From positions 1 to 25,939 of IMG/VR virus record IMGVR_UViG_3300024432_000061: a stretch of DNA of 25,939 nucleotides; one strand, written 5' to 3'. This document shows positions 5,342-25,939 of this stretch, piece by piece. This stretch comes from a virus. The notes below the pieces were generated by a model. It saw only the letters and a list, made by a program, of their open reading frames with translations, was not told where the DNA came from and did not search any database. Numbering within the stretch: position 1 is the stretch's first letter; the number at the start of each line of letters is the position of its first letter. The position numbers and the translations under genes were made by a program.

Positions 5342-5570
5342 ACCTCGCCTTCCTTATTTGATATTCATTCTTTAGGATAATATTAACATTCCTACCTTCT
5401 TCATCACGTACAATTATTGCTTCACCTGACTGAAGCAATTTTACTACTTGACGAACCTTTTCAATTGTGTCAGTAAGATCGGTACCATCTCTAGTAACAA
5501 ACTCTACTATAATTTCGCATATACGGCTAACCTCCAATGTTTCAATCGGAATCTCAAGCTCAAAGTTCAC
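5322..5570 (-). CDS. Small hypothetical tail-module protein (GTG start)
   Basis: 82 residues beginning GTG AAC TTT GAG; the GTG lies inside the end of the hub gene (11-base overlap). The product MNFELEIPIETLEVSRICEI continues with an acidic, helix-strand pattern (IVRDEEGRNVNIILKN). Its end overlaps the next gene by 20 bases, so the three genes are tightly coupled. No family recognised; a small tail assembly or structural accessory protein is inferred from position. Confidence 0.6.
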   Translation of the reverse strand: MNFELEIPIETLEVSRICEIIVEFVTRDGTDLTDTIEKVRQVVKLLQSGEAIIVRDEEGRNVNIILKNEYQIRKARYEALWR

Positions 5571-9309: not shown

Positions 9310-9310
9310 A

Positions 9311-9682
9311 TCATGTTACCTCGCTCATTATGAGTAAGTCTAATTGACAGTTAATTCTATTATAATTTGCCGAGGATTCCTGCGATATCCAGTATTCCCC
9401 GGTTAAGTTTAATACTTCGACATTATAGTTAACGGTAGATCCATGAAGTTTAGGCTGCCAGACAACCTGTACGTCTGACTGATAAACTGCATCTAAGGCA
9501 TCAAACATAGTGGAGGGCATTGCGTTCCACTTAAGAGGTATGGTTTTACCTACAATTGCCGTCCCCCATGAAAAATATTGAACGGACGAATATGTTTGCA
9601 CATGAGCGTTAATTTTATCCCCCTTCAGCATTTTCATACTTCCGGGATCAAGCGCAAATGTAGTTGTGGATAATACCATCAT
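9311..9682 (-). CDS. Minor tail protein between tape measure and hub
   Basis: 123 residues, beta-rich (VQYFSWGTAIVGKTIPLKW, VVWQPKLHGSTVNYNVEVL), acidic end. It starts inside the tape-measure stop (TAATG arrangement at 9682), so translation is coupled. In siphoviruses this slot holds lambda gpM/gpL-like or distal-tail proteins; the length is near gpM, but I cannot assign a family. Two adjacent ATG codons are possible starts. Confidence 0.65.
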   Translation of the reverse strand: MMVLSTTTFALDPGSMKMLKGDKINAHVQTYSSVQYFSWGTAIVGKTIPLKWNAMPSTMFDALDAVYQSDVQVVWQPKLHGSTVNYNVEVLNLTGEYWISQESSANYNRINCQLDLLIMSEVT

Positions 9683-12012: not shown

Positions 12013-12020
12013 ATTTCCTC

Positions 12021-12250
12021 TTACCCATGCTGTACATTTTTTATTTTTTGTTGTGACACTATGGCCTTGAATTTAGCTTGTAAATCTTGCTTCGTCTCTT
12101 CCGGTTTTTCATCTTCAAGCATAAAAAATGCTATCCAGCCAGCGAGTTCACGGCTATCCATTTCCGATCTTAGCTGTTTAACCGTTTTTCCCAACTCACG
12201 AGCTAACCGGAAGGTGAACCTAAGCTCGAAGTTGGTGGAGATTCCCCCTT
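12021..12250 (-). CDS. gpT-like extension of tail assembly chaperone, reached by -1 frameshift
   Basis: In the -1 frame relative to the upstream chaperone gene, an open stretch runs from a TAA near 12297 to TAA at 12021-12023. It encodes FTFRLARELGKTVKQLRSEM then SRELAGWIAFFMLEDEKPEE. This matches the conserved tail-assembly protein T pattern (R-x-L-x-x-x-M-x-S-x-E-L-x-x-W) found downstream of G in lambda-like phages. It has no start codon or SD of its own. Slippage on the G run at 12244-12248 would give a G-T fusion of about 189 residues. Protein and position evidence are strong; the exact slip site is inferred. Confidence 0.8.
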
Positions 12251-12589
12251 GATTTGTTCTACTCCTTCCTTGTTCAATCCGTTTAGCTTGGATGCTGCTT
12301 TAAAAATCTTTTCCAATGCCATTCCGGACTTAGTGCTTAACTTTGCTTTATCTTTATTGGTAAATATAAGCTCGCCTTTAGCGTTAGTACAAGTCAAGAC
12401 TACGACTTCCTCCATTAAATCAACAGGGACGTCGCCGGTTGCGGCCCCTACCCGTGCAATAAATTTAGCCCGTTCATTAGCTGTCATTACCTTGACAAAG
12501 CAATACTTCCCCCATTCGCTTATTACTACTTTTTCTAAAGTAATATCATCGACATCGAGGATCTCTTTAGTTAATATTTGAGTTTCCAT
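12203..12589 (-). CDS. Tail assembly chaperone (gpG-like)
   Basis: 128 residues beginning METQILTKEILDVDDITLEK, with a strand-rich N-terminus (WGKYCFVKVMTANERAKF) and helical C-terminal half. It lies between the tail tube and tape measure, the fixed position of gpG-type chaperones that coat the tape measure during tail assembly. SD AAAGGAATTTT precedes ATG. The last 13 residues (ESPPTSSLGSPSG) are read only without frameshifting; the -1 frame continues into the T domain. Confidence 0.8.
   Translation of the reverse strand: METQILTKEILDVDDITLEKVVISEWGKYCFVKVMTANERAKFIARVGAATGDVPVDLMEEVVVLTCTNAKGELIFTNKDKAKLSTKSGMALEKIFKAASKLNGLNKEGVEQIKGESPPTSSLGSPSG
12244..12250 (-). promoter_or_regulatory. 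Putative -1 ribosomal frameshift slippery site
   Basis: On the minus strand the codons AAG-GGG-GAA form the run AAGGGGGAA. A tRNA on GGG can slip back one base onto GGG with full pairing, and the next tRNA (GAA) onto GGA with a U-G middle pair. It lies 41 bases before the zero-frame stop and inside the window where the -1 frame is open, linking the G and T reading frames. No other homopolymer run of this kind is present in the overlap. Confidence 0.6.
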
Positions 12590-12620
12590 AAAATTCCTTT
12601 CTTTAGGTTGATAATCACTA

Positions 12621-13283
12621 CTATTCGTTTATTCTTGTCGAATCGACAACCGGCCCGGTTATTTCAAGCGTAAGACTGGCGCTTATTTTATCGTCAACCG
12701 CCCCTGTGATCTGATGTAGCAGGCAATATGCCTCAAACCATGATCTTGAAGGATATGAGGTTGAGGTAATAAGGGCATCGGTAAACAATATATCAAACAA
12801 CCCTTTTCTGCGAGCCGCCCTATCATTTTTTAATCCGACTTGCCCGGCGTCCGTGGCGTTATAGTTTACCGACATGGTCAATTGCCCTTCGTCCCGCAGG
12901 CCTATCAATTTTTGCTTAGCCGTTGATTGTAAATGAGTTATATCAATTACCGCAGCCCCGCCACCGGGACCGGAAAAATCATTAACCTCTCCAATCTCTT
13001 CCATTAAATGTCCGGTAATAACGATATCAGCGGTTGCGTTTGTTGTTAATATCGGACCATAAACATTAATAGCTGTAGTCACCACTGATTTTATGGGATA
13101 AAAACCGGTATCGACTGAGGAGAATCTAATACAATGATTGGTTGTAAATCCCAAGGCGGCAAAATCAATTGTCCCCGGACAGTCAATCACGGTTGTTTGA
13201 ATATCCATTGCAGTTGCAGCCGAACTATTAACCGTAACGGTAGAGGCCCTTCTTATTCTAAGCCCTTGCGCTTCCATGGCCAT
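12621..13283 (-). CDS. Tail tube protein, paralogue 2 (with insertion)
   Basis: 220 residues. From GEVNDFSGPGGGAAVIDITH through LIGLRDEGQLTMSVNYNATD to the C-terminal SASLTLEITGPV it is highly similar to the smaller paralogue at 13551-13967, the phage lambda gpV-like / HK97-type tail tube fold. It carries about 70 extra residues near the N-terminus (STVTVNSSAATAMDIQTTVI ... VITGHLMEEI), apparently an extra beta domain that could decorate the tube. Strong SD (AAAGGAGGTGATGTT). May form the tube or a variant ring. Confidence 0.8.
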   Translation of the reverse strand: MAMEAQGLRIRRASTVTVNSSAATAMDIQTTVIDCPGTIDFAALGFTTNHCIRFSSVDTGFYPIKSVVTTAINVYGPILTTNATADIVITGHLMEEIGEVNDFSGPGGGAAVIDITHLQSTAKQKLIGLRDEGQLTMSVNYNATDAGQVGLKNDRAARRKGLFDILFTDALITSTSYPSRSWFEAYCLLHQITGAVDDKISASLTLEITGPVVDSTRINE

Positions 13284-13322
13284 AACATCACCTCCTTTGT
13301 TAATTATTTAAAAACTCATTAT

Positions 13323-13538
13323 TTATTTAATATTAATTATCGCCAAAGACCTTTGACTAAACTTAAGCTTAACCAACTCTGTGCCAAAGCCGAGATTATT
13401 TAGCTTCCGTATAGTTTTATTTGCTTTCCCTAGGTCAAGTCTAGTTGCTAAAAGAGGATCGCTAACACAATAAGGCTGATCCCTTATAAATTTTATAAAA
13501 TATCCACTCCCGCTTTTGACAATAAACAGACGTACCAT
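13323..13538 (-). CDS. Small hypothetical protein between tail tube paralogues
   Basis: 71 residues, basic (MVRLFIVKSGSGYFIKFIRD ... LVKLKFSQRSLAIINIK), no family recognised. It sits between the two tail tube genes. A purine run (AAAAAAGG) abuts the ATG with almost no spacing, so the start is uncertain. It does not resemble structural proteins and may be a moron-like insertion between duplicated tail tube genes. Confidence 0.5.
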   Translation of the reverse strand: MVRLFIVKSGSGYFIKFIRDQPYCVSDPLLATRLDLGKANKTIRKLNNLGFGTELVKLKFSQRSLAIINIK

Positions 13539-13550
13539 CCTTTTTTATAT

Positions 13551-13967
13551 CTAGGCCGTTGTGTGTGTCACAGCGCCATCAATCTCTAAAGTAATACTGG
13601 CGGCTATACTATCGTCAACAGCTCCCGTTACCTGGTACAAGAGACAATAGGCATCGAATACGGCACAATTAGTTGCCGCATCATTAAACTTTATCAGAGC
13701 TTTTCTTTTGGTGCGTGTAGCCCTATCGCTTTTTAATGCTATTTGCCCGACATCCGTGGCGTTAAAATTGACCGACATGGTTAATTGCCCCTCGTCCCGG
13801 AGACCTATCAATTTTTCTTTAGCGGTTGACTGTAAATGAGTTACATCAATTACAGCAGCCCCGCCGCCCGGCCCTGAAAAATCCTTTACCTCTCCTATCT
13901 CTTGGGCTGACGAGACAGCGGTGCTCGTAGACCAAAAAAATCTAGTTCCCTGAGCTTCAATAGCCAT
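13551..13967 (-). CDS. Tail tube (major tail) protein, paralogue 1
   Basis: 138 residues starting MAIEAQGTRFFWSTSTAVSS, then EIGEVKDFSGPGGGAAVIDV and LIGLRDEGQLTMSVNFNATD. The order (after tail-completion genes, before chaperone and tape measure), size and Gly-rich pattern fit siphovirus tail tube proteins. SD AAGGAGGAAAT precedes ATG. It is probably the main tube subunit; the larger paralogue follows 71 codons later. Confidence 0.85.
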   Translation of the reverse strand: MAIEAQGTRFFWSTSTAVSSAQEIGEVKDFSGPGGGAAVIDVTHLQSTAKEKLIGLRDEGQLTMSVNFNATDVGQIALKSDRATRTKRKALIKFNDAATNCAVFDAYCLLYQVTGAVDDSIAASITLEIDGAVTHTTA

Positions 13968-13976
13968 ATTTCCTCC

Positions 13977-14351
13977 TTACTCCCGATTCCAGATCGAGAA
14001 CTCTAAGGTTCTTATGAATTGGTTTAATTCATCATCAAAGTCATCAATCGGTGAACTAAACGTCTGTGCAGAGAATTCAACAGAGCTACTCATTGCCTCT
14101 ATTACAGCCTCGCCTATTACCCTTCGGCTGTCAATATCCGAGGTATAGATATTGACATTATAATGGCCGTTCTCTAAACCCGCATATCCTCCCAAGTGAA
14201 CTACCCTATGTCCGCCGGTTCGCTGGTAATCAATTGCGGGCAGGCTGTCATCCTGGTTGCGATGATCCGGATTAATATTCGCAGTGCTGACCTTTGTATT
14301 AATAACCGTGCTAGTTGTCAAGACCTTAAATAGTTTTTCTTCAATGGACAC
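13977..14351 (-). CDS. Tail completion/terminator protein (DUF3168, gp17-like; GTG start)
   Basis: 124 residues. The pattern SIEEKLFKVLTTSTVINTKV, DDSLPAIDYQRTGGHRVVHL, YNVNIYTSDIDSRRVIGEAV is typical of DUF3168 proteins that cap the tail tube at the head-tail joint. The start is GTG at 14351, overlapping the previous stop by 11 bases, with AAGGA upstream. Confidence 0.75.
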   Translation of the reverse strand: MSIEEKLFKVLTTSTVINTKVSTANINPDHRNQDDSLPAIDYQRTGGHRVVHLGGYAGLENGHYNVNIYTSDIDSRRVIGEAVIEAMSSSVEFSAQTFSSPIDDFDDELNQFIRTLEFSIWNRE

Positions 14352-14862
14352 TAGGCCGTTCCTTTAACTCAACAAAGTTTTTATACTTTTTTTGCATTTC
14401 TCTTAATGCTTGACGCCAAGTTTTATCAAAGGCCAATTTCAACCATGGCTTTGCCCTGGCTCCGGGATGTTGCACTTTAACTCCAAGGAAAATACCTTCT
14501 TTTGTTCTTAAAATCTTCTTTCGTTTTACTTTGATTTCGTGCGGAGCTGTGCCGAACTCCACCAGCCGTCCATACCAGCCGTCATACTTGGCTCGTTTAC
14601 CTACCGTATTGCCGACTAGATAAACAAACCTAGTTTTAGGAACTTTACGAAATCTCCGAATCGCAATACTTTTTAGCAAGATACCCCTTTTGACCGGTAC
14701 GGTTTTTCTCGCAGCTTTCGCAAAAACCAGCGCCCCCTTTTTTGTCATAGCAATCGCCCCATCTGTTTGAGCGATAGCGCTAATTTTTTTTAGCCGGTCG
14801 CTTAAAGCCTTTAACCCTTCAACTTTAATAGTAATTCTATAGCCCGGAAAGCTTTGAATCAT
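14341..14862 (-). CDS. HK97 gp10-family head-tail/tail-completion protein
   Basis: 173 residues, basic. Recognisable features: VEGLKALSDRLKKISA, AARKTVPVKRGILLKSI, VGKRAKYDGWYGRLVEFGTA and PGARAKPWLKLAFD, the gp10-like pattern (V-P-V-[KD]-[ST]-G-x-L...Y-x-x-x-V-E-F-G-[TS]...P-x-P-[FW]-[LM]). It works in joining the tail to the head. It sits between the adaptor and DUF3168 genes as expected. Confidence 0.85.
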   Translation of the reverse strand: MIQSFPGYRITIKVEGLKALSDRLKKISAIAQTDGAIAMTKKGALVFAKAARKTVPVKRGILLKSIAIRRFRKVPKTRFVYLVGNTVGKRAKYDGWYGRLVEFGTAPHEIKVKRKKILRTKEGIFLGVKVQHPGARAKPWLKLAFDKTWRQALREMQKKYKNFVELKERPSVH

Positions 14863-14871
14863 AATAATTTA

Positions 14872-15195
14872 TTATTCCAAATTTCTACCTAAAATTAACA
14901 AATCGGTGTGCGCGTAATCGACATCTATAAGCCCCTGGATTTCAAATATATTACCATCGCATGCAATCACTTGTTTTGTATTGATCACAGAGGTATAGCG
15001 TGCTGTGAACTTCATATCCACATCGTAATATCTCTGGTTCTGTAGGAATATTTCTTTACCTTCAACCGGTTCAACCTTTGCCCAAAGATTTTCAATTGTT
15101 GTGGTATAGGTAAATATTTTCCCGCCGTCTGTGCTTCTCGCTGTACTTTTCGGGGAAAGAACATTGATTAAATTATCGAGCTCACCGGCATTCAT
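14872..15195 (-). CDS. Head-tail adaptor (head closure) protein
   Basis: 107 residues. N-terminus MNAGELDNLINVLSPKSTAR, then NLWAKVEPVEGKEIFLQNQR and KFTARYTSVINTKQVI, the SPP1 gp16-like head-tail joining pattern (W-A-x-V-x-P...E...A-R-Y). SD AAGGATAAAAAA precedes ATG. Confidence 0.8.
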   Translation of the reverse strand: MNAGELDNLINVLSPKSTARSTDGGKIFTYTTTIENLWAKVEPVEGKEIFLQNQRYYDVDMKFTARYTSVINTKQVIACDGNIFEIQGLIDVDYAHTDLLILGRNLE

Positions 15196-18220: not shown

Positions 18221-19489
18221 TTATTCTAATATTACTATCGGGCTTATTGTATTAGATGTGGAACCCTCTAGTGGGATTGGCTCTTCCAACCATGGGTGGC
18301 CATCCACATTCCATATAATTCTAAAACAGGTTTGATCGGACGTGAAGAAGACTTCCTTTGACAGATCGACAAACGGTCCCGATCCGTCTTTAATAAGATA
18401 ATAAGACAGGTCCGCTAGTAACAGATCTCCTTTTGTCCCTAACCCCGGACACCGTTCAGCCCAAAGCACGTCAAACCCCATTAGAGTAGGGGGAACGCCT
18501 TGAGTCGCTGACACGTGCCACATATTGTTGTTTGCCGTATCTCTAATATTCACAAGCTGTGGAATGGTAGTTTGACTTGCAAGCCAAACCAGACCCCCTC
18601 CAAACTTAGCTCTAGCATACATCCCAACTATATCTGCATATGCAATTTGTGCAGCCGTGGCCCGGTTGTATGCAATTGCACAAGAGGCGTTAAATACTCC
18701 GGCCGCCTTTGCAGCGCCATCACCTCTTAAAAAATCATAATCTTCGGACCCTATCTTGGCTAACCTCATTTGTTTTTCAACAAATGAAGTACAGGCGTCC
18801 CAATTTCTTAGCAATTCATTCGTGACCACTAAGTATCCTGTCATCTTGTTAGGCTCGAACGTAACCTGCTTAAAAAATATATTAGTTTCGGTTAAATTCG
18901 CCTGTTCACCTTTGTGATAAACAACGACACCTCCGTACATATTCCTATTGGCGCCCTGATCAAGGGTTGGAATAGTTAGTTTTGCATCCGGAGGATCACC
19001 GGCAGCTATAACTGTGGCTCTTGGACGGATTAGAGCTTCCTGGGGCTGAACTTGTTTTACGTTTCTATCAAATTGTTCAGGCAGCACAAACCCGCCTAGC
19101 TGCCCTGTACCAACCTGTTGAGATGCCCTTTTCTCGTCAATTTTCATTAACCGGGGATCACTGCGGTTTGTTGCGATAGTAAAGAAAAATTCCCCTAAAT
19201 TCTTAAAACCATTATCCGGTAAAGCCCTTTGGTTATTGTCGGGCGGGGGTGGAGTTTGACTAACTGTAAATTCACTATTCACGACCTCCAAAGATGTTTC
19301 CAGCGCATGTAATTCCTTTTCACGCGTAATTTCATTATCTAAGTGAGATACGCTGGCCTTTAGCTCTTCATATGTTTTTCCTTCCTCATCCGTTAAATTT
19401 CTTTTCTCCTCATCTGCCTTGGAAACCAAAGCTCTCATTGAGCCTATAGAATCTTTACGCATCTTTTGTAACTTTTGAATTTTATCCAT
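18221..19489 (-). CDS. HK97-type major capsid protein
   Basis: 422 residues from ATG at 19489 (SD GGAGGGAATTG); a TTG one codon upstream is less likely. The N-terminal ~75 residues are a charged coiled coil (scaffolding/delta domain, normally removed by the protease). After a proline-rich linker (PPPPDN) comes the HK97 fold: GGFVLPEQFDRNVKQ, LTETNIFFKQVTFEPNKMTG (E-loop region), YLVVTNELLRNW, DYDFLRGDG and a C-terminal SYYLIKDGSGPFVDLSKEVF. Follows portal and protease in the canonical order. Confidence 0.92.
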   Translation of the reverse strand: MDKIQKLQKMRKDSIGSMRALVSKADEEKRNLTDEEGKTYEELKASVSHLDNEITREKELHALETSLEVVNSEFTVSQTPPPPDNNQRALPDNGFKNLGEFFFTIATNRSDPRLMKIDEKRASQQVGTGQLGGFVLPEQFDRNVKQVQPQEALIRPRATVIAAGDPPDAKLTIPTLDQGANRNMYGGVVVYHKGEQANLTETNIFFKQVTFEPNKMTGYLVVTNELLRNWDACTSFVEKQMRLAKIGSEDYDFLRGDGAAKAAGVFNASCAIAYNRATAAQIAYADIVGMYARAKFGGGLVWLASQTTIPQLVNIRDTANNNMWHVSATQGVPPTLMGFDVLWAERCPGLGTKGDLLLADLSYYLIKDGSGPFVDLSKEVFFTSDQTCFRIIWNVDGHPWLEEPIPLEGSTSNTISPIVILE

Positions 19490-19544
19490 CAATTCCCTCC
19501 TTTAATTAAGATTAACATTTGATAATCCTTTATGAAAATTCTTA

Positions 19545-20183
19545 TTAACCAATTTCCAGTAAGTCAATCTCCTTTCCTAGAAGTGTATTTCTTATAAATT
19601 CCGGAGGACGAGAGATTGATTCCCTCCATTGAGTATGCGATCTTAAAGCTACGTCCGCATCCTCATAAGCTGCGAAAGTAACCGGAGATACGTCCAATAA
19701 CTTAACTTCCTTTAAAATACGTAAATCAGTTTTATCTTTTTCAACTATCCATTCCGTAACAATAGCATTAAAAGAAAAGGACATTTGCGAAATATCCCCA
19801 CGTTCTATTGAAATAACCAAATCCCGTGTATATGAGGTGTCGGCTGGGAAGATTTTTATTGCCAGTCCGACTTCATCCTCTTGAAGTTCTAAGGTTTTAG
19901 ACTTGTTTCGGCCAAGGATATAGTTTGGTTCGTGATTAAAGAGCGCTCTTATATCATCCTCTTTAATCGTTTTTGTAAAAGCTCCGGGTGAAACTTGCTC
20001 TCTAAACCAACCGCCTATATCTGTTATAATATTAAAAACAGCGGCATGGCCGACTATATTTTTAATGCCCTTCTCATCTTTCTCAGTCCTAAATTCTTTA
20101 AAATTAAAGAATCTTCTTTCAGTATTACCCTCAAAATTACTTTCGTCACTACTTCTTCTTTTTCTTTTTTGGCTTTGGGTCAT
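19545..20183 (-). CDS. Prohead protease (HK97 family, U35-type)
   Basis: 212 residues if started at ATG 20183, which has GAGG six bases upstream; ATG codons at 20189, 20195 and 20228 are alternatives. It overlaps the portal end by 35 bases in another frame. The expected family marks are present: GHAAVFN, GAFTKTIKEDDIRALFNHE (catalytic His), ISQMSFSF (catalytic Ser) and LKEVKLLDVSPVTFAAY. It cleaves the capsid N-terminal domain during maturation. Confidence 0.9.
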   Translation of the reverse strand: MTQSQKRKRRSSDESNFEGNTERRFFNFKEFRTEKDEKGIKNIVGHAAVFNIITDIGGWFREQVSPGAFTKTIKEDDIRALFNHEPNYILGRNKSKTLELQEDEVGLAIKIFPADTSYTRDLVISIERGDISQMSFSFNAIVTEWIVEKDKTDLRILKEVKLLDVSPVTFAAYEDADVALRSHTQWRESISRPPEFIRNTLLGKEIDLLEIG

Positions 20184-21522
20184 CGTCATCCTCATTGTCC
20201 GCTTTAGGACTTGTGTTTTTATTATCATCTACATCCGGAGGGTCTTCCCCAGCCTCAATCATATTAACAGGTTCAAGATATCTATCTCCATTTTCTATAG
20301 GATTGTCATTCTCTTTTTTTCTAATATCATTAACAGACAACCAACCCCATTGTCTGCCGAGTGCATATGATTTATTTCTGCTTTCCGTATCGCCTCTTAA
20401 TAAGCCGTTAATTGAGAATTCAGCATATATTTTATCATAATCTTCTTCCGGAGATAGATCGACATTAATTGCCTCTTCAATCCGTTTTAGCCAAGGCGCA
20501 AGGGTGAATTTAACAAATGACAGCATGAATTGCTCTGAGGATGAATGAGTCATCGTCTTGTCAGGATGTCCGATCATAACGGCAGGCATCCTATAAAAAC
20601 GACAAATCTCCTCAACGGAGAATCTTCGGGTCTCAAGGTATTGGCTGTCTTCTTGCGAAATTCCGGTTTCTTTCCACTCAGCGCCCAGATCAAAGACCAT
20701 AACCTTGAATTTATTATCCCCGGTCATACCATAGGTCAATTCCTTGATCATTTTCTCCTTCATGCCTTCTTTGAGCTTGCCCGGGACTTTTACGTATCCC
20801 GAGGTTCTTGCGCCATTCTTATAATAATTAATACCATGATTTTCAGCATGTTGTGACAATCTTATTGATTTTCTAGCGTATTCAATCGGGCTTAAGCCAA
20901 CCACCCCGTCCAGTGATAAGCTTTTAACATGCCAAATTTTATCAGCGCTATAATCTTTTGATACACCCTTATCATTTATATATTTATAAATAATCTCATT
21001 ATCCTTAACCTCCGGTGTCATTTGCTTCGTTTTAAGAGAAATTATTTCAGCGAGCTTGCCGGCTTGGGTATAATTCTTACCGCCGTAATAATTTCCTCTA
21101 AGGGAAAGCATAGCGACAATATTTTCGATAAAACCAATTTTTTTTTGTAATTTGTTTGGTTTTCGAAATAATTTAGCTAAAAAATAATCACTATATTCTT
21201 CTCTTTTATCATCGCTTACTTTTTTATACCATTTTAGCGGCAGCGTGGAAATAGTCTCGCTTAAGACCTTAATGCAAGCAAACACGGTTGACACTTGGAG
21301 TGATTGCTCATCGGATACTTTTTCACCTGACAAGGCATCGGTAATAGTTCCCAACAACCAATGATCCGTAGCAGATAAAGGTTGGCTAGGACCAAATCCT
21401 TTATTGCGAGCTTCAGCCTCCGGTTGAATCTCTTTGTCCTCCGGTTGAATCTCTCTGTCCTCCGGTTGAATCTCTCTGTTGTTATAAAAAAAAGGGAATT
21501 CTCCCTTTAGCCCGATGCCCAT
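20149..21522 (-). CDS. HK97-type portal protein
   Basis: 457 residues. Portal marks: VSTVFACIKVLSETISTLPL, FIENIVAMLSLRGNYYGG, KIWHVKSLSLDGVVGLSPIE, NYYKNGARTSGYVKVPGKL and RRFSVEEICRFYRMPAVMIG. It forms the DNA entry ring at one capsid vertex. The N-terminus has three 7-residue repeats (EIQPED[R/K] type). The C-terminus is Asp-rich then Lys-rich (DDDDPKPKKKKKK). There is no clear SD at the ATG. Terminase genes, normally next upstream, are not seen. Confidence 0.93.
   Translation of the reverse strand: MGIGLKGEFPFFYNNREIQPEDREIQPEDKEIQPEAEARNKGFGPSQPLSATDHWLLGTITDALSGEKVSDEQSLQVSTVFACIKVLSETISTLPLKWYKKVSDDKREEYSDYFLAKLFRKPNKLQKKIGFIENIVAMLSLRGNYYGGKNYTQAGKLAEIISLKTKQMTPEVKDNEIIYKYINDKGVSKDYSADKIWHVKSLSLDGVVGLSPIEYARKSIRLSQHAENHGINYYKNGARTSGYVKVPGKLKEGMKEKMIKELTYGMTGDNKFKVMVFDLGAEWKETGISQEDSQYLETRRFSVEEICRFYRMPAVMIGHPDKTMTHSSSEQFMLSFVKFTLAPWLKRIEEAINVDLSPEEDYDKIYAEFSINGLLRGDTESRNKSYALGRQWGWLSVNDIRKKENDNPIENGDRYLEPVNMIEAGEDPPDVDDNKNTSPKADNEDDDDPKPKKKKKK
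21417..21479. repeat. Three tandem 21-bp repeats in portal N-terminus
   Basis: Three consecutive copies of CCTCCGGTTGAATCTCTCTG plus one base (21417-21437, 21438-21458, 21459-21479; the first differs at one base). In frame they encode the EIQPEDR, EIQPEDK, EIQPEAE repeats before the portal fold. In-frame length change by slippage is possible. Confidence 0.9.
21484..21508 (-). terminator. Candidate intrinsic terminator/attenuator inside portal start
   Basis: On the minus strand AAAGGGA pairs with TCCCTTT across a GAAT loop and is followed by a run of T (complement of 21485-21493). It lies about 90-115 bases after the predicted start of transcription and within the first codons of the portal. 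The stem is only 7 bp and partly A-T, so it is a weak candidate for attenuation. Confidence 0.35.
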
Positions 21523-21601
21523 AGTTTGATTAAAATCATTATTTTAGGTGATAAACTTATTGTTATGATTATGAATTTGTATTCATATATCATTATGTAT
21601 T

Positions 21602-21630
21602 ATTATATATCGGAAAATATAGGAAGACAA
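21602..21630 (-). promoter_or_regulatory. Sigma70-like promoter for the structural operon
   Basis: Minus strand: -35 TTGTCT (21630-21625), 17-base spacer, -10 TATAAT (21607-21602, perfect consensus). It lies in the 135-base AT-rich gap (21523-21657) upstream of the portal; transcription would start near 21595, leaving a ~70-base leader. This gap holds no gene. Confidence 0.65.
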
Positions 21631-21657
21631 AAACGAGGTTGGCTTAATTGATTTAAT

Positions 21658-22047
21658 TTATATTTTAATGCGGTTTTTGTTGGCTAAAACATTAGTCTTT
21701 ATTATTTCTAATATCACAAAAGCTCTTTTCTGCATTTCTTGTATGGCTTCATTAGCCATTTGAGAAGTCTCTTCTCTGTATTCTACTTTTGGATGTGCTA
21801 TTGCCTCTAAATTATTTAAGATATCCGTAAGGGTATTTTCTAATATTTTATATTCTTTTTGAGTTGCTTGTAATGTTCCTCGGGGCGGACATGGCATATC
21901 CGCCTGTTGTCTTTCTTTAAGGCGACATTCACATTCACCATCACCATACACGATCCTACATGCGCAAGCATGAATATGCCCTTGCCCCAGATGCGTATGC
22001 ATATTTCCTGTTGCTCTTTCGCCCTCTGCCTCTGTGTTTAAAATCAT
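21658..22047 (-). CDS. Hypothetical protein following endolysin
   Basis: 129 residues from ATG at 22047, which overlaps the endolysin stop as ATGA (22047-22044). The N-terminal part is His- and Cys-rich (NMHTHLGQGHIHACACRIVY, CECRLKE), suggesting metal binding. The C-terminal part is helical (EYKILENTLTDILNNLEAIA). Possibly a lysis-linked accessory, but no family recognised. Confidence 0.65.
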   Translation of the reverse strand: MILNTEAEGERATGNMHTHLGQGHIHACACRIVYGDGECECRLKERQQADMPCPPRGTLQATQKEYKILENTLTDILNNLEAIAHPKVEYREETSQMANEAIQEMQKRAFVILEIIKTNVLANKNRIKI

Positions 22048-22349
22048 CCGGTACCGGACCTCTCTCCCCAACTATAATGATTCCCGTCCTTCCATCGTCC
22101 GCCCCATGTGCCACCGATCGACTCCCAAAAGAGGCCTAAAGGTTTGTGCGCTTTAGTACTTCGCAAATAGTGTCCGCTGCGGAAAAGGTTGAGATCCGCT
22201 GCTAATTTTTTCTTATGGAATGATCCCCTCTTATGCCCCGTTTTTGAGGTAAAGTCTTCAAAGGTAATCTCATATCCTAATTCATATGCATATAATATGA
22301 GAAGTGGTAATTTGTGAGCAAAAACTGATTGTTTTTGGCGTAAAGTCAT
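22044..22349 (-). CDS. Phage endolysin, M15-type (L-Ala-D-Glu/D-Ala) peptidase
   Basis: 101 residues. It begins MTLRQKQSVFAHKLPLLILY and carries FHKKKLAADLNLF (zinc-binding His45 and Asp52), LGLFWESIGGTWGGRWKDGN and His91 (DGNHYSW). These are the S-x-H-x6-D and G-N-H marks of phage M15 peptidases that cut peptidoglycan cross-links. Its ATG is 17 bases beyond the R' box of the last attC site, with GAGG upstream. Lysis next to the portal and away from a holin is uncommon; the small membrane protein at 15831-16070 is the only holin-like candidate. Confidence 0.88.
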   Translation of the reverse strand: MTLRQKQSVFAHKLPLLILYAYELGYEITFEDFTSKTGHKRGSFHKKKLAADLNLFRSGHYLRSTKAHKPLGLFWESIGGTWGGRWKDGNHYSWGERSGTG

Positions 22350-22365
22350 CCTTTGGTTTTCCTCT

Positions 22366-22430
22366 ATATAACCGATTAATAAGTTGCCAAAATGCCATCT
22401 CCTTTTGGTCAGCTTGATTTAATATTCTTT
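22366..22430 (-). other. attC_1, terminal attC with decayed R'' box
   Basis: Arms AAGTTGCCAAAA (22381-22392) and TTTTGGTCAGCTT (22403-22415) pair with one extra T. The R' box GTTATAT (22372-22366) is intact. Where sister sites attC_4 and attC_12 have GTTAG at the R'' side, this one reads AATATTCTTT, so the R'' box is lost. It ends the array and abuts the endolysin gene. Confidence 0.75.
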
Positions 22431-22684
22431 TATTTCACAAGATATGTCGGCCATCCGCTAGGATAACATCTTCTTGCTATTCTTGTTGTAAGTAAACCTT
22501 GAATTAAATGAACGGCATAGCCAAATTCACGTTTTTCTTCCGGATGTTCAGTAGGAATGTCTAAAAAAATTTGATAACTCTCCATTAATTTATCAAGGAC
22601 TTTTTGTTCTTGATCGGTTAAACCAAGAATATTTTCCTCTTCCGGAACTGGAGGCTTTGCTTTAATCTTGTTTAAGGTATTCAT
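22430..22684 (-). CDS. Cassette 1: hypothetical protein
   Basis: 84 residues, ATG 22684 with AAGGAG eight bases upstream; the stop is at the edge of attC_1. It begins MNTLNKIKAKPPVPEEENIL and has a helical acidic middle (LTDQEQKVLDKLMESYQIFL) and a basic end (TTRIARRCYPSGWPTYLVK). No family recognised. As the last cassette it has its own SD, unlike many neighbours. Confidence 0.7.
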   Translation of the reverse strand: MNTLNKIKAKPPVPEEENILGLTDQEQKVLDKLMESYQIFLDIPTEHPEEKREFGYAVHLIQGLLTTRIARRCYPSGWPTYLVK

Positions 22685-22708
22685 TTTTAATACTCCTTTT
22701 TTTATTTT

Positions 22709-23218
22709 CTATATAACGTAGAAATCACTTGCCAGCGACACTGCCAGCTTTATCGGCAGGGTTGCTGGCAAGTGCATTGGTGGGTTATATTCTTTATCAA
22801 TTGCAATAAAACCTTCCATTGCTTTAATAAATGAATACCATTGCGTGGTATTAAACCTTAACTCATCTATTTGCTCATCTTTTTCCCAAAAACCACAAGA
22901 TGAAATTTTAAATTCTTTATGATCCCACCACGCACCCCTTATAGATGTCCCCCATTCCAATTTATCTATAAAAAATGGCATATTACACAGAAGTAAATAC
23001 CATACATAATTTTCGTTATCGTTATGATATTTAAATGTTTCTCTATTGTTTATTGCAGAGCAAACTTCTAAAGCCTTCTTTGCAAATAATTCATCTATAC
23101 AACCATCATAGGTGGTAAAATTAAAAACATGTAAAGCAAGAAATTCTAAACGGGTTATTTCTTCCTCATCGTCACAACAAACTTTATAACTATGCTCAAG
23201 TAATTTTAAATACTCCAT
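22709..23218 (-). CDS. Cassette 2: hypothetical cassette-family protein reading through attC
   Basis: 169 residues from ATG 23218 (AGGA upstream; a TTG three codons earlier is less likely). The pattern YLKLLEHSYKVC, FNFTTYDGCIDELF, NMPFFIDKLEWGTSIRGAWW and FWEKDEQ resembles a family of unknown function I associate with bacterial mobile or cassette regions. The last ~25 residues (PPMHLPATLPIKLAVSLASD ...) are encoded by attC_2 itself, with the stop at its R' box, so the C-terminus is attC-derived. Confidence 0.7.
   Translation of the reverse strand: MEYLKLLEHSYKVCCDDEEEITRLEFLALHVFNFTTYDGCIDELFAKKALEVCSAINNRETFKYHNDNENYVWYLLLCNMPFFIDKLEWGTSIRGAWWDHKEFKISSCGFWEKDEQIDELRFNTTQWYSFIKAMEGFIAIDKEYNPPMHLPATLPIKLAVSLASDFYVI
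22711..22790 (-). other. attC_2
   Basis: R' side ATATAAC (22711-22717), R'' side GTTATAT (22784-22790). Arms CACTTGCCAGC and GCTGGCAAGTG pair perfectly, so this site lacks the extra T that marks most others. The whole site is translated in frame as the end of the cassette 2 protein. Confidence 0.8.
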
Positions 23219-23237
23219 ATCAAACAATCCTAACTTA

Positions 23238-23315
23238 ATATAACGCAGAAACGACCAGTAAAAGCCTAAGCAGCTTTATCGTTAGGTTTTTACTGCGTCC
23301 GTTGATTTGTTAGAG
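23238..23315 (-). other. attC_3
   Basis: Boxes ATATAAC (23238-23244) and GTTAGAG (23309-23315). Arms CAGTAAAAGCCTAA and TTAGGTTTTTACTG pair with one G-T wobble; an extra C, not T, sits next to the flanking GAC/GTC pair. Confidence 0.8.
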
Positions 23316-23512
23316 AGTTTTTCGACATGCAAAGCGTGCGTTGCTTGCTTCATTAAGACATCTTCTCTTTGGAAGACTTCGCCCCCTGTTAATTTATACA
23401 ATTGAACTTCTTTCGATGCTAGTCTAACAGTTACGATTTCTTCTATTTCCTCTTTTGTAAACCCCTCGTCAGAATCCACCCCATACATTAAAACTGTTCC
23501 GAGCTCAAGCAT
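23282..23512 (-). CDS. Cassette 3: small acidic hypothetical protein
   Basis: 76 residues, ATG 23512 with AGGGAG upstream (this SD overlaps the R' box of attC_4). Product MLELGTVLMYGVDSDEGFTK, then VRLASKEVQLYKLTGGEVF. The final residues (NKSTDAVKT) are encoded by attC_3; the stop is in its loop region. No family recognised. Confidence 0.65.
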   Translation of the reverse strand: MLELGTVLMYGVDSDEGFTKEEIEEIVTVRLASKEVQLYKLTGGEVFQREDVLMKQATHALHVEKLSNKSTDAVKT

Positions 23513-23522
23513 ATTTTTTTCT

Positions 23523-23587
23523 CCCTAGCCGATTAATAAGCTGCCAAAATGCTTTTTATTTTGGTCAGCTTCATTTAATTGTTAGAC
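23523..23587 (-). other. attC_4, with mutated R' box
   Basis: R'' side GTTAGAC (23581-23587) is a perfect box. The R' box on the minus strand reads GCTAGGG instead of GTTAGGG, changing the conserved GTT at the crossover. Arms AAGCTGCCAAAA (23538-23549) and TTTTGGTCAGCTT (23559-23571) pair with the extra T. Same subtype as attC_1 and attC_12. Confidence 0.8.
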
Positions 23588-23766
23588 ATTAAACCATCGT
23601 GTTTTTTATCCCGCCAAGCATAACATCCCAAATGACTAAGAAGCCATGCAAGCGTAGAAATAATTTTGAATTTAAGCGGCATATCTACCATAAGCCAAAA
23701 TAAATTAAATAACCATATGTCGGAAATAAATCCTATCCCAATAACAATATTATAAAATGTTTTCAT
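23575..23766 (-). CDS. Cassette 4: small membrane protein
   Basis: 63 residues from ATG 23766. A longer frame starts at 23805 but that ATG lies inside attC_5, so the later start is preferred. Two hydrophobic segments (YNIVIGIGFISDIWLFNLFW and IISTLAWLLSHLGCYAW) suggest an inner-membrane protein. The stop lies in the R'' box of attC_4. Function unknown; short membrane proteins are frequent in cassettes. Confidence 0.6.
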   Translation of the reverse strand: MKTFYNIVIGIGFISDIWLFNLFWLMVDMPLKFKIISTLAWLLSHLGCYAWRDKKHDGLMSNN

Positions 23767-23775
23767 GTCCAGTGT

Positions 23776-23860
23776 GTCTAACGATAAATTGACTAGCCGA
23801 CACATCCCGTTGAATTAACCAATATCCTTGGATTCGGTCTAGTCGAATGGTTTGTTATGT
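23776..23860 (-). other. attC_5
   Basis: Boxes GTCTAAC (23776-23782; R' on the minus strand GTTAGAC, full consensus) and GTTATGT (23854-23860). Arms GACTAGCCGA (23791-23800) and TCGGTCTAGTC (23834-23844) with extra T. Same subtype as attC_8 and attC_11. Confidence 0.85.
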
Positions 23861-24094
23861 GGCTAACCATGCGAAAGCAAGCCACAATATCCGTATTTTA
23901 AAATAACCGTTTAAATGGTCATATTTTAAATGACCTATTTTACCATACCAAGGATTACCTGTTAATGTTCCACAGTTTGCCATCCATCCTATGCGATATC
24001 GCCTTTTCTTGGTTTTTATTTCAATTGCATATATAGGACGGATAATACATTCTGTGCTGTAACTATCATCTCTAATAGATTTAATTTCCCACAT
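23855..24094 (-). CDS. Cassette 5: hypothetical protein with start codon in the recombination box
   Basis: 79 residues, MWEIKSIRDDSYSTECIIRP, then KTKKRRYRIGWMANCGTLTG and a hydrophobic end (IRILWLAFAWLAT). Its ATG (24094-24092) overlaps the R' box of attC_6 (GTTATG), leaving no room for an SD in the cassette. The stop is in attC_5 R''. No family recognised. Confidence 0.6.
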   Translation of the reverse strand: MWEIKSIRDDSYSTECIIRPIYAIEIKTKKRRYRIGWMANCGTLTGNPWYGKIGHLKYDHLNGYFKIRILWLAFAWLAT

Positions 24095-24157
24095 AACGCA
24101 GAAGTTAGCCGCAAAGGCTGTTGTGTAGCCTTTGTCGGCTACACTGACTTGTTAGGT
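24091..24157 (-). other. attC_6
   Basis: Boxes ACATAAC (24091-24097) and GTTAGGT (24151-24157). Arms TAGCCGCAAAGGCT and AGCCTTTGTCGGCTA pair with the extra T. The R' box contains the start codon of cassette 5. Confidence 0.85.
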
Positions 24158-24304
24158 GTCTTCACGTGGGGCACAAAAAGCCTCCTCACAGATCACAATA
24201 ATCGTCATTATTGAATCTGGTGTCTGAGTTTAGTTGTCTGCTATATTTTTTTACCGGAAAAAGAATATAGTATTTACAACTACTTTCAGTACCCCCGTCA
24301 AGGC
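24158..24304 (-). other. Cassette 6: no convincing gene; hairpins and a possible promoter
   Basis: A 147-base cassette. The only minus-strand frame is 18 codons (MTIIVICEEAFCAPREDT) ending at attC_6 R''. It holds a hairpin CAATAAT-GACG-ATTATTG and a longer one CTATATTCTTTTT...AAAAAAATATAG. A weak promoter-like pair TTGACG (24301-24296) and TAAATA (24276-24271) with 19-base spacing sits just inside the cassette. It may be a non-coding or promoter cassette. Confidence 0.45.
24271..24301 (-). promoter_or_regulatory. Weak candidate promoter inside cassette 6
   Basis: Minus strand TTGACG then TAAATA with a 19-base spacer, right after the attC_7 R' box. The spacing is longer than ideal. If active it would drive cassettes 5 to 1 and possibly the endolysin. 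Confidence 0.3.
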
Positions 24305-24376
24305 ACCTAACGTGAAAATCACTTAACGATAGGCTGTTTCTCAAGCCTAGCGATCAAGTGGATTGCTTGGTTATAG
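24305..24376 (-). other. attC_7
   Basis: Boxes ACCTAAC (24305-24311) and GTTATAG (24370-24376). Arms CACTTAACGATAGGCT and AGCCTAGCGATCAAGTG pair imperfectly with one base extra on the second arm. Confidence 0.8.
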
Positions 24377-24482
24377 GTATCTTAGCGTCCCATGATGATA
24401 ACGCCTTGGTTTTTCTTCTTTATCAAGCAATACATTAACATACTGCCCATGGGCAGACGTAATGCGTCCTCTAATTAATTCA
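24377..24482 (-). pseudogene. Cassette 7: open frame without standard start
   Basis: Minus-strand frame from a TAG in the attC_8 R' box to TAA in attC_7 encodes IELIRGRITSAHGQYVNVLL then DKEEKPRRYHHGTLRYL, without ATG, GTG or TTG in frame near its beginning. The cassette shares its first bases with cassette 12 (TTAGATTGAATTAATTA) but where cassette 12 has ATG this one has AG, as if a base was lost. A damaged gene or non-coding cassette are both possible. Confidence 0.35.
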
Positions 24483-24568
24483 ATCTAACATAGAATTGAC
24501 TAGCCGACTGAGTCGCTCCGATATCTTAATCCCCAGTGATGTCGGTCTAGTCCAAGGATTGGTTATAA
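24483..24568 (-). other. attC_8
   Basis: Boxes ATCTAAC (24483-24489) and GTTATAA (24562-24568). Arms GACTAGCCGAC (24498-24508) and GTCGGTCTAGTC (24541-24552) with extra T. Closely related to attC_11, sharing GACTGAGTCGCTCC beyond the arm. Confidence 0.88.
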
Positions 24569-24700
24569 ATGAATTACGGCAATTAATTTATGATCTGTCC
24601 AAGTAAACATGCCGTCTAAATGTTTTAACAATTCTTTTTCAGAATTTAAAATTATTTCTAATATTTCCCCGTCAGTATTTTTTTTAATTACTTTAAACAT
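24563..24700 (-). CDS. Cassette 8: small hypothetical protein (45 aa)
   Basis: ATG 24700 to TAA 24563-24565, which lies in the R'' box of attC_8. Product begins MFKVIKKNTDGEILEIILNS and ends TDHKLIAVIHL, a compact strand-helix pattern. It fills the cassette exactly between two attC sites. No SD is seen; ATG is about 10 bases after the R' box. Confidence 0.6.
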   Translation of the reverse strand: MFKVIKKNTDGEILEIILNSEKELLKHLDGMFTWTDHKLIAVIHL

Positions 24701-24708
24701 AATATTAT

Positions 24709-24773
24709 TTATAACGCTGAATTAACTTGCCGAGGGTGCTTTTCCCTCGGTCAAGTTCAATGATTTGTTATAT
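24709..24773 (-). other. attC_9
   Basis: Boxes TTATAAC (24709-24715) and GTTATAT (24767-24773). Arms AACTTGCCGAGGG and CCCTCGGTCAAGTT with extra T and a short loop. Cleanest of the array. Confidence 0.88.
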
Positions 24774-24934
24774 TGCTCTTTTAGCCGCTCCGTGCTCCGT
24801 GTTATTTTATATTCTGTCTTATTAAGAATTATTTTTCCTTCTTTCTTTCTCGATCCTATAAATTTTTCTAGCTGTTCGCGAGAATAAGGATTTAATAATA
24901 TTTTTTTTGCTGTAGGAGAAATCCATGCTTTCAT
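24722..24934 (-). CDS. Cassette 9: small basic protein reading into attC
   Basis: 70 residues from ATG 24934. MKAWISPTAKKILLNPYSRE, then RKKEGKIILNKTEYKITRST; strongly basic. The last ~17 residues (NKSLNLTEGKAPSAS) are encoded by attC_9, the stop being in its second arm. No clear SD. Could be nucleic-acid binding, inferred only from charge. Confidence 0.55.
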   Translation of the reverse strand: MKAWISPTAKKILLNPYSREQLEKFIGSRKKEGKIILNKTEYKITRSTERLKEQYNKSLNLTEGKAPSAS

Positions 24935-24956
24935 ATTATATCTTTCTATTTTTTCA

Positions 24957-25023
24957 ATATAACGACAAAATGACTAGTAAAAAATGCTTTTTATTTTTTA
25001 TCTAGTCTATTGTTTTGTTATAT
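24957..25023 (-). other. attC_10
   Basis: Boxes ATATAAC (24957-24963) and GTTATAT (25017-25023). Arms GACTAGTAAAAAAT and ATTTTTTATCTAGTC with extra T. Confidence 0.85.
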
Positions 25024-25244
25024 TTTTTTCCCCAATAATATTTAGTGACGTCCGGCCTCCAACAAAAAGTCCATTGCGTTTTTTTCTTCTTTACGATTAT
25101 TTCTAATGTATACGATGTAGTTTTCATAGTTCCAGCCGTTCCAGATTTATCCCATCGAATGCTAATATTTGGTTTTTTTTCGGGCATTGACTCAGTTTTA
25201 TGTATTAATATTGGGAATATAAAAGTTCGTTTAAATATTTTCAT
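25002..25244 (-). CDS. Cassette 10: hypothetical protein
   Basis: 80 residues from ATG 25244 (a TTG just before it is also in frame). MKIFKRTFIFPILIHKTESM, then IRWDKSGTAGTMKTTSYTLE and WTFCWRPDVTKYYWGKKYNK. The end (NKTID) is read from attC_10. The start is 5 bases after the R' box, without SD. No family recognised. Confidence 0.55.
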   Translation of the reverse strand: MKIFKRTFIFPILIHKTESMPEKKPNISIRWDKSGTAGTMKTTSYTLEIIVKKKKTQWTFCWRPDVTKYYWGKKYNKTID

Positions 25245-25246
25245 CA

Positions 25247-25333
25247 ATATAACAAAGATTTGACTAGCTGACTGAGTCGCTCCACAGGGATTGATCCCTT
25301 AGGATGTCGGTCTAGTCGAATATTGGGTTATAA
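25247..25333 (-). other. attC_11
   Basis: Boxes ATATAAC (25247-25253) and GTTATAA (25327-25333). Arms GACTAGCTGAC (25262-25272) and GTCGGTCTAGTC (25306-25317) with extra T; the central loop holds an AGGGATTGATCCCT hairpin. Confidence 0.88.
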
Positions 25334-25502
25334 ATTCCTTTGCAATAATATAAATGCAATCTCTTTCATGCATAGGTTTATAAGTGCAGTGTCCATCACA
25401 ATAGAAACAATAAGTATGTCCATCACGACTAGATGTATAATCAAAACCTTTAGATATTAATTTTTGAATTATATTTATAGCTTCTATTGATATACCTTTC
25501 AT
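25299..25502 (-). CDS. Cassette 11: small Cys/His zinc-binding-like protein
   Basis: 67 residues from ATG 25502. The central stretch YCFYCDGHCTYKPMHERDC has Cys-x2-Cys-x3-Cys and His-x2-Asp-Cys, a likely zinc site. Similar short C-x2-C...H-x2-D-C proteins occur in phage and cassette genomes. The C-terminus (TQYSTRPTS) is encoded by attC_11. The start follows the R' box by 7 bases, no SD. Confidence 0.65.
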   Translation of the reverse strand: MKGISIEAINIIQKLISKGFDYTSSRDGHTYCFYCDGHCTYKPMHERDCIYIIAKEFITQYSTRPTS

Positions 25503-25505
25503 TAT

Positions 25506-25573
25506 TTATAACGGCACAATAAGCTGCCAAAAGATGCCTCATCCTTTTGGTCAGCTTGATTTATTTGTTAGAT
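25506..25573 (-). other. attC_12
   Basis: Boxes TTATAAC (25506-25512) and GTTAGAT (25567-25573). Arms AAGCTGCCAAAA (25521-25532) and TTTTGGTCAGCTT (25545-25557) with extra T. Intact sister of attC_1 and attC_4. Confidence 0.88.
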
Positions 25574-25820
25574 TTTCTTTATTCTCTTTCAATATTAATA
25601 TTGTTCCATGCCTTTCAATTAAATTTATTAACTTTTCATATATGTCCCAATTATATAAAGCCGTCATATTACGGAGAGCACTAAGATTATTTTTATTTAA
25701 AACAATAGGATATTTACCAAAATTATTTTTGAGACCAATCGCATATCTTTCTGTGCTATGACATAAAAATTGAGCGCCCGAGGGTTTATATGGCAACCAT
25801 GTTATAGGTATTTTTTTCAT
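25551..25820 (-). CDS. Cassette 12: hypothetical protein
   Basis: 89 residues from ATG 25820: MKKIPITWLPYKPSGAQFLC, then AIGLKNNFGKYPIVLNKNNL and a helical end. The final NLTNKSS is encoded by attC_12. The leader TTAGATTGAATTAATT before ATG is shared with cassette 7. No SD. No family recognised. Confidence 0.6.
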   Translation of the reverse strand: MKKIPITWLPYKPSGAQFLCHSTERYAIGLKNNFGKYPIVLNKNNLSALRNMTALYNWDIYEKLINLIERHGTILILKENKENLTNKSS

Positions 25821-25830
25821 AATTAATTCA

Positions 25831-25931
25831 ATCTAACGTAAAGCTCACTTGCCAGTTGGCCTGCCCTCTAAGTCTAGCTCTGTACTAGGATCGGTTCAGG
25901 CCAACTGGTCAAGTGGAGCGTTTGGTTATAA
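25831..25931 (-). other. attC_13
   Basis: Boxes ATCTAAC (25831-25837) and GTTATAA (25925-25931). Arms CACTTGCCAGTTGGCCTG and CAGGCCAACTGGTCAAGTG with extra T; the longest site (101 bp). Its upstream cassette leaves the window at 25932-25939; only a possible TAA stop in the R'' box of this site is seen. Confidence 0.88.
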
Positions 25932-25939
25932 ATTGCCTC

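Follow-up and report, generated by a model that had tools for sequence, protein, structure and literature searches.

When an array of integron cassettes lies directly beside the structural genes of a phage, does it belong to the phage or to the DNA of a host? The question is raised by the IMG/VR record IMGVR_UViG_3300024432_000061, which was analysed over its entire length of 25,939 nucleotides (the window) and whose right end falls at the start of such an array. A preliminary description had pointed to thirteen attC-like sites ending at position 22366, adjoining phage late genes on the same strand, and had left two options: one phage genome with cassettes, or a prophage at the distal end of a sedentary integron, with the array driving lysis genes. 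We suggest that the array is probably a phage-borne cluster of attC sites lacking integron integrases (CALIN) in the late region of a tailed phage of the HK97 type, the cassettes of which would have come from a host integron integrase acting in trans.

Structure and identity of the attC sites

All thirteen attC sites were found on the minus strand of the window, from 25932 down to 22363 (Table 1), and both covariation and a slide control placed them far above chance. Twelve were aligned for structure, attC 13 being held out, and the resulting model comprises six R''-R' pairs, eleven L''-L' pairs and one unpaired column. Across the twelve aligned sites, standard pairs occupied 90.7% of the cells, the covariation score was 0.500 compared with 0.200 (standard deviation 0.027) after shuffling, a value reached by none of 500 shuffles, and doubly compensated cells numbered 37 compared with 13.3 in the shuffles, with compensatory changes on both sides in 11 of the 17 pairs. 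A shift by one column lowered pairing to about 35%, and all slid versions lay between 25 and 40%. The core pairs C9-G97 and A7-T99 are present in 12 of 12 sites and A8-T98 in 11, and the R'' and R' boxes (TAAC/GTTA), which contain the AAC/GTT core of attC, pair in nearly all sites. According to single-stranded DNA folding, the hairpin forms on the plus strand of the window, i.e., the bottom strand of the cassettes, and most folded bottom strands carry a single extrahelical base in an asymmetric position, as is characteristic of the polarity of attC; attC 12 has no extrahelical base in its L arms. The fold z-scores range from -1.3 to -7.9 (the weakest are those of attC 9, 6 and 13), the R' box of attC 10 is degenerate (GGCTAGG), and attC 13 is decayed, having no good R''. 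No Rfam family was matched at the curated cut-offs, and a scan with a hand-written attC pattern that allowed no bulge gave a signal not separable from that of shuffles.

Other sequences were searched with a covariance model (R2) built from the twelve aligned sites only. In an earlier model (R1) the slide control had exposed outer-helix partners that were one column off; because its outer helices were misplaced, R1 was replaced and the main claims rest on R2. The R2 model found the held-out attC 13 at 27.8 bits and gave six matches in five plasmid-borne class 1 integrons, located directly after catB3, aadA1, aadA2 and dfrA5, and twice at the array end ahead of qacE. It also gave two matches (42.6 and 20.6 bits) in the published CALIN of Tetrasphaera phage TJE1. 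In phage and prophage sequences totalling 1.47 Mb, which had been fetched by similarity to TerL, capsid or M15 peptidase, no match at E values up to 1 was obtained. Exact patterns for two attC subfamilies matched a single viral contig, the second record described below, and the exact attC-subfamily pattern had no match in genome contigs.

Hairpins are common between small phage genes, and the sites might be read as ordinary intergenic hairpins or terminators. This is very improbable, because the R''/R' pairing is near-universal, the extra base is asymmetric, and R2 matches genuine class 1 attC sites; moreover, terminator-like matches numbered 5 compared with 3.0 expected, and none of them coincided with a site.

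Location of the array in the phage genome

A search with the portal gene retrieved a second record, IMGVR_UViG_3300028835_001459 (37,448 bp; hereafter G001), which contains the whole window at 100% identity, save for one 46-bp stretch, and extends 11.5 kb past its right end. The 46-bp stretch (window 25788-25833), absent in G001, is the sole difference between the two in 25.9 kb; the gap starts four bases into the R' box of attC 1 and takes away the start of the first cassette open reading frame (ORF), and it represents either a strain variant or an assembly difference.

The left end of G001 carries, in forward orientation, attC sites at 77, 370 and 639 and a decayed attC at 1010, followed by a DUF1353 gene, a Holliday junction resolvase-like gene, a DnaA C-terminal domain, Rha, terS (4471) and terL (4941-6500). 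Downstream of terL lie NeuB, a small ORF ending in a truncated attC (7779, 19.4 bits), a second small ORF ending in a good attC (8043, 54.1 bits), an SDR gene, a cytidylyltransferase, an FkbM methyltransferase, a helix-turn-helix (HTH) gene, an ORF termed X', and then the thirteen-site array (11563-15086). The array is followed by the M15 peptidase, ORF X, portal, protease, capsid, connectors, tail tube, tape measure and an HNH gene. With the terminase upstream and the portal downstream, the array lies inside the late region of the phage, flanked left and right by core genes of the phage and co-oriented with the late genes. The presence of terminase, portal, protease, HK97 capsid, tail tube and tape measure on one molecule characterizes a siphovirus-like tailed phage. 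Outside the main array, four clear and two decayed attC sites occur at two loci, the left end of G001 and the interval between NeuB and SDR. The attC sites form a diverse set, their pairwise identity averaging 0.58 across 19 sites.

The preliminary description had proposed a portal operon on the same strand beyond an endolysin and its neighbour, and portal, prohead protease and HK97-type capsid genes were indeed found there. It had also placed the endolysin 17 bases past the array on the same strand; the position is correct (ATG at 22349), and the putative function is taken from the M15 peptidase domain (PF13539, 28.8 bits, over the cut-off), the phage relatives of the protein being 40-76% identical.

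Judged from the window, which by itself ends within the array, the array could be host DNA, either because a prophage sits at the end of a sedentary chromosomal integron or because the contig is chimeric. Phages excising beside chromosomal integrons are known, e.g., p16 of Vibrio anguillarum (PMC9892861), and the two records may come from libraries that are not independent. However, G001 runs through the array and, with no change of strand, into the HTH gene, the sugar genes and the two terminase genes, attC sites also lie between NeuB and SDR, and the junction between array and phage is the same in both records, which lessens the concern about a chimera. A host origin is therefore quite improbable, being largely refuted by G001 for the main array, with the left-end locus excepted. 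Of the two options of the preliminary description, one phage genome with cassettes is upheld by the terminase and portal flanks and by the attC sites between other phage genes, whereas a prophage at the distal end of a sedentary integron, with an array driving lysis, finds no support for the main array. The readings as chance, terminators or a chimera were rejected on the grounds given above.

Cassettes and their products

Ten of the 12 intervals between sites contain one co-directional ORF (45-172 aa), as in integron cassette arrays. The ORFs start -6 to 24 nt from the end of the preceding site and stop within or adjoining the following attC, and the longest reverse ORFs per interval measure 23-45 aa, except in interval 1 (75 aa). 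Intervals 6 and 7 contain no ORF of more than 22 aa; cassette 7 (window 24159-24301, 143 nt), which has no ORF, could be a non-coding cassette. Most cassette products match no family, and comparison of the cassette ORFs with PADLOC gave no defence match. Promoter-like matches in the array were not above chance; as the array and the late genes point the same way, its expression on late transcripts is plausible.

Relatives of the cassette 11 product occur in Vibrio phages and Pseudomonas plasmids; one of the copies in Vibrio phages lies on the opposite strand amid tail genes. The cassette 12 product belongs to small phage protein families (Table 1). That the relatives of two cassette proteins are phage or plasmid genes suggests two-way exchange.

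Integrase search and class of the element

No tyrosine recombinase (PF00589) was matched in the window record or in G001, whereas all control genomes were positive. The preliminary description had recommended extending the contig to the right for intI/attI and terminase: the additional 11.5 kb of G001, which lie upstream of the array, contain the terminase and no intI. An attI was not recognised by eye, and a complete integron is thus not in evidence. With thirteen attC sites and no neighbouring integron integrase, the array corresponds to a CALIN (at least two attC sites without such an integrase) on contigs that are incomplete; beyond the DnaA C-terminal domain and Rha, no replication or lysogeny module was seen in either record.

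A complete phage integron, with its own intI and attI in a part outside the contigs, would be compatible with the incompleteness of both records, and some temperate phages do have complete integrons (PMC9892861); the usual place of intI and attI, however, is covered by the 11.5 kb upstream of the array and has neither, and we regard this alternative as unlikely.

Origin of the array

Integron integrases act on the folded bottom strands of attC sites, which they recombine with attI or another attC and, at lower efficiency, with secondary sites of the GTT type (attG). The simplest account for the phage is capture in trans: its cassettes may have entered as circles through attC recombination, with a host integron providing the integrase. 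The first insertion would have used a GTT-type secondary site of the phage, and later ones the attC sites present by then. In an integron-bearing host, such capture would have taken place on more than one occasion and at different positions. The array would now be carried as accessory (moron) genes of the phage, probably read on late transcripts, and the phage could carry cassettes between integron-bearing hosts. On present evidence, the phage by itself cannot shuffle cassettes.

The boundaries of the array were inspected in this context. At the right boundary, the leader of the M15 gene follows directly on the R' box of attC 13 (GTTATAT, 22372-22366; GTTATATAG). At the left boundary, X' ends inside the R'' box of attC 1. 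X' starts after a GTTATAAATAA motif at G001 ~11317, which is preceded by a 28-nt AT-rich palindrome, and this motif could be the first GTT insertion point. X' (G001 11344-11570) and X (window 21658-22071) are diverged direct repeats around the array and the M15 gene. A relative with a TerL 55% identical has the order terS-terL-HTH-portal, with no cassettes in between. Some attC subfamilies are common to the three loci: attC 10 shares 79% identity with the site at 370, and attC 7 shares 71% with that at 1010. The occurrence of one subfamily at different loci fits a single cassette pool or internal movement.

Alternatively, a host integron might have supplied the array ready-made and in one piece, through homologous or illegitimate recombination, a route of the kind proposed by Qi et al. 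(PMC9892861). The related ORFs X' (frameshifted) and X flank the array as the scar of a duplication or recombination might do, but their divergence is too great to date an event, and the presence of cassettes with related attC subfamilies at three separate loci means that several events would be needed; block transfer is possible, yet we favour it clearly less than capture by an integrase. It is also conceivable, though rather doubtful, that the attC sites at several loci are standing entry ports through which host integron integrases repeatedly load and exchange accessory genes, so that integrons would run the turnover of the phage's morons, possibly with an integrase of the phage's own in the unsequenced part.

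Several points weigh against the capture of cassettes by a phage with the help of a host integrase. Integrase-driven insertion is inferred, and if ordinary recombination had moved an existing array as a block, the outcome would look similar; the GTTATAAATAA motif at the left boundary is one motif in AT-rich DNA and serves as a lead only. An intI could lie in the missing part of the contigs, and the left-end locus (G001 77-1081), which reaches the contig end, could be host DNA. The window record and G001 may come from related samples, and neither the host nor its integron was found.

Regarding the host, the best TerL relative in genome contigs was a prophage in a Syntrophus metagenome-assembled genome (58%), the others listed being from Firmicutes (44-48%), in a list shaped by the search patterns; on this result we assign no host. 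Searches of Desulfobacterota genomes with R1 and R2 gave weaker attC-like sites, mostly scattered, with scores reaching 49 bits. Within the Syntrophus phylum, two genomes have seven attC-like sites each (E up to 0.01), and in one of them the seven sites are spread along one 2.5-Mb contig and form no single array.

Table 1. Features of the window around the array and the adjoining late genes, in the reading direction of the array
Feature	Position (strand)	Length (aa)	Family	R2 score (bits)	Remarks
attC 1	25828..25932 (-)			56.7	first in reading direction; fold z -5.8
cassette ORF	25551..25820 (-)	89			
attC 2	25503..25574 (-)			68.4	
cassette ORF	25299..25502 (-)	67			
attC 3	25244..25334 (-)			65.2	
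cassette ORF	25002..25247 (-)	81			
attC 4	24954..25024 (-)			69.3	
cassette ORF	24722..24934 (-)	70			
attC 5	24706..24774 (-)			71.3	
cassette ORF	24563..24700 (-)	45			
attC 6	24480..24569 (-)			72.7	weak fold, z -2.0
attC 7	24302..24377 (-)			62.2	
attC 8	24088..24158 (-)			63.1	
cassette ORF	23855..24094 (-)	79			
attC 9	23773..23861 (-)			62.3	weak fold, z -1.3
cassette ORF	23575..23766 (-)	63			76 aa with upstream start
attC 10	23520..23588 (-)			55.8	degenerate R' box
cassette ORF	23282..23512 (-)	76			
attC 11	23235..23316 (-)			56.0	
cassette 11 ORF	22709..23227 (-)	172	phrog_18399 (E 9e-46)		C-terminus extends into attC 12
attC 12	22708..22791 (-)			58.9	fold z -7.9
cassette 12 ORF	22430..22684 (-)	84	phrog_13916 / phrog_21487		small phage protein families
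attC 13	22363..22434 (-)			27.8 (over 22363-22426)	last before M15 gene; R1 34.2 bits
M15 peptidase	22044..22349 (-)	101	PF13539		putative endolysin; right flank of array
ORF X	21658..22071 (-)	137			kin of frameshifted X' on left flank of array in G001
portal protein	20149..21522 (-)		PF04860, phrog_12		
prohead protease	19545..20228 (-)		PF04586		
major capsid protein	18221..19492 (-)		PF05065		HK97-type

Other features of the two records

Between terL and the HTH gene (G001 6493-11003), NeuB, SDR, a PseF-like cytidylyltransferase and the FkbM methyltransferase constitute sugar genes of the nonulosonic-acid type. Directly after the attC at 639-712, G001 719-798 can be folded into a tRNA-like cloverleaf that resembles tRNA-Ser, its variable arm being long and its anticodon loop carrying UGA; it scored 34.9 bits with the Rfam tRNA-Sec model, below the gathering score, and ARAGORN made no call. 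An apparent second, partial tRNA-like stretch is located at G001 ~805-890. In the window, two tail-tube-like genes (12621-13283 and 13551-13967) have a 197-nt stretch in common with 84% identity, a duplicated major tail protein, and two adjacent genes of the tail region (878-1873 and 1877-2914) are akin over their full length, with 70-81% DNA identity in pieces. The portal gene contains, close to its start, a 21-nt unit (peptide REIQPED) repeated three times in frame (21417-21479).

Comparison with known elements and significance

The preliminary description regarded cassette arrays as normally chromosomal or borne by plasmids and transposons, but phage CALINs have already been published: 17 are reported from virulent and temperate phages, and IntI1 integrated five of six attC sites of virulent phages into attI1 (Qi et al. 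2023, PMC9892861). In the same paper, the cryptic Shewanella prophage M16-3 is described with a CALIN near terminase and structural genes (PMC9892861). Like the phage described here, TJE1 has attC sites and cassette ORFs without an integrase in a tailed phage genome, and sugar-nucleotide genes between its CALIN and terL; however, it has three attC sites in one cluster, whereas the present phage has thirteen in a main array situated between terL and portal and six more, two of which are decayed, at two further loci. M16-3 resembles it in that the CALIN is flanked by phage structural and terminase genes, but M16-3 is cryptic and has an intact intI and attI, whereas here no intI or recognised attI is present and the late genes look intact. 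Sedentary chromosomal integrons of the Vibrio type also contain long arrays of small ORFs of unknown function, each ended by an attC, yet their sites are uniform, in contrast to the diverse sites found here without intI and in a phage gene order. Class 1 plasmid integrons have the same attC architecture, but their intI1, attI1, resistance genes and 3' conserved segment are missing here. The phage thus joins the published kind of phage CALIN and stands out by an array of thirteen sites (compared with three in TJE1, on which this comparison of size is based) and by three loci within 37 kb. A limited literature search found no paper describing such a phage, and neither the M15 gene nor the 137-aa ORF nor the 172-aa cassette protein, when used as a query, retrieved another phage with adjoining cassettes.

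Integrons store small genes, mostly of unknown function, and the movement of cassettes from one bacterial lineage to another is still to be explained. The present phage, with an array in its late region and two more cassette loci, provides a concrete, packageable vector for whole cassette arrays, and with this phage, phage-mediated transfer of cassettes becomes testable.

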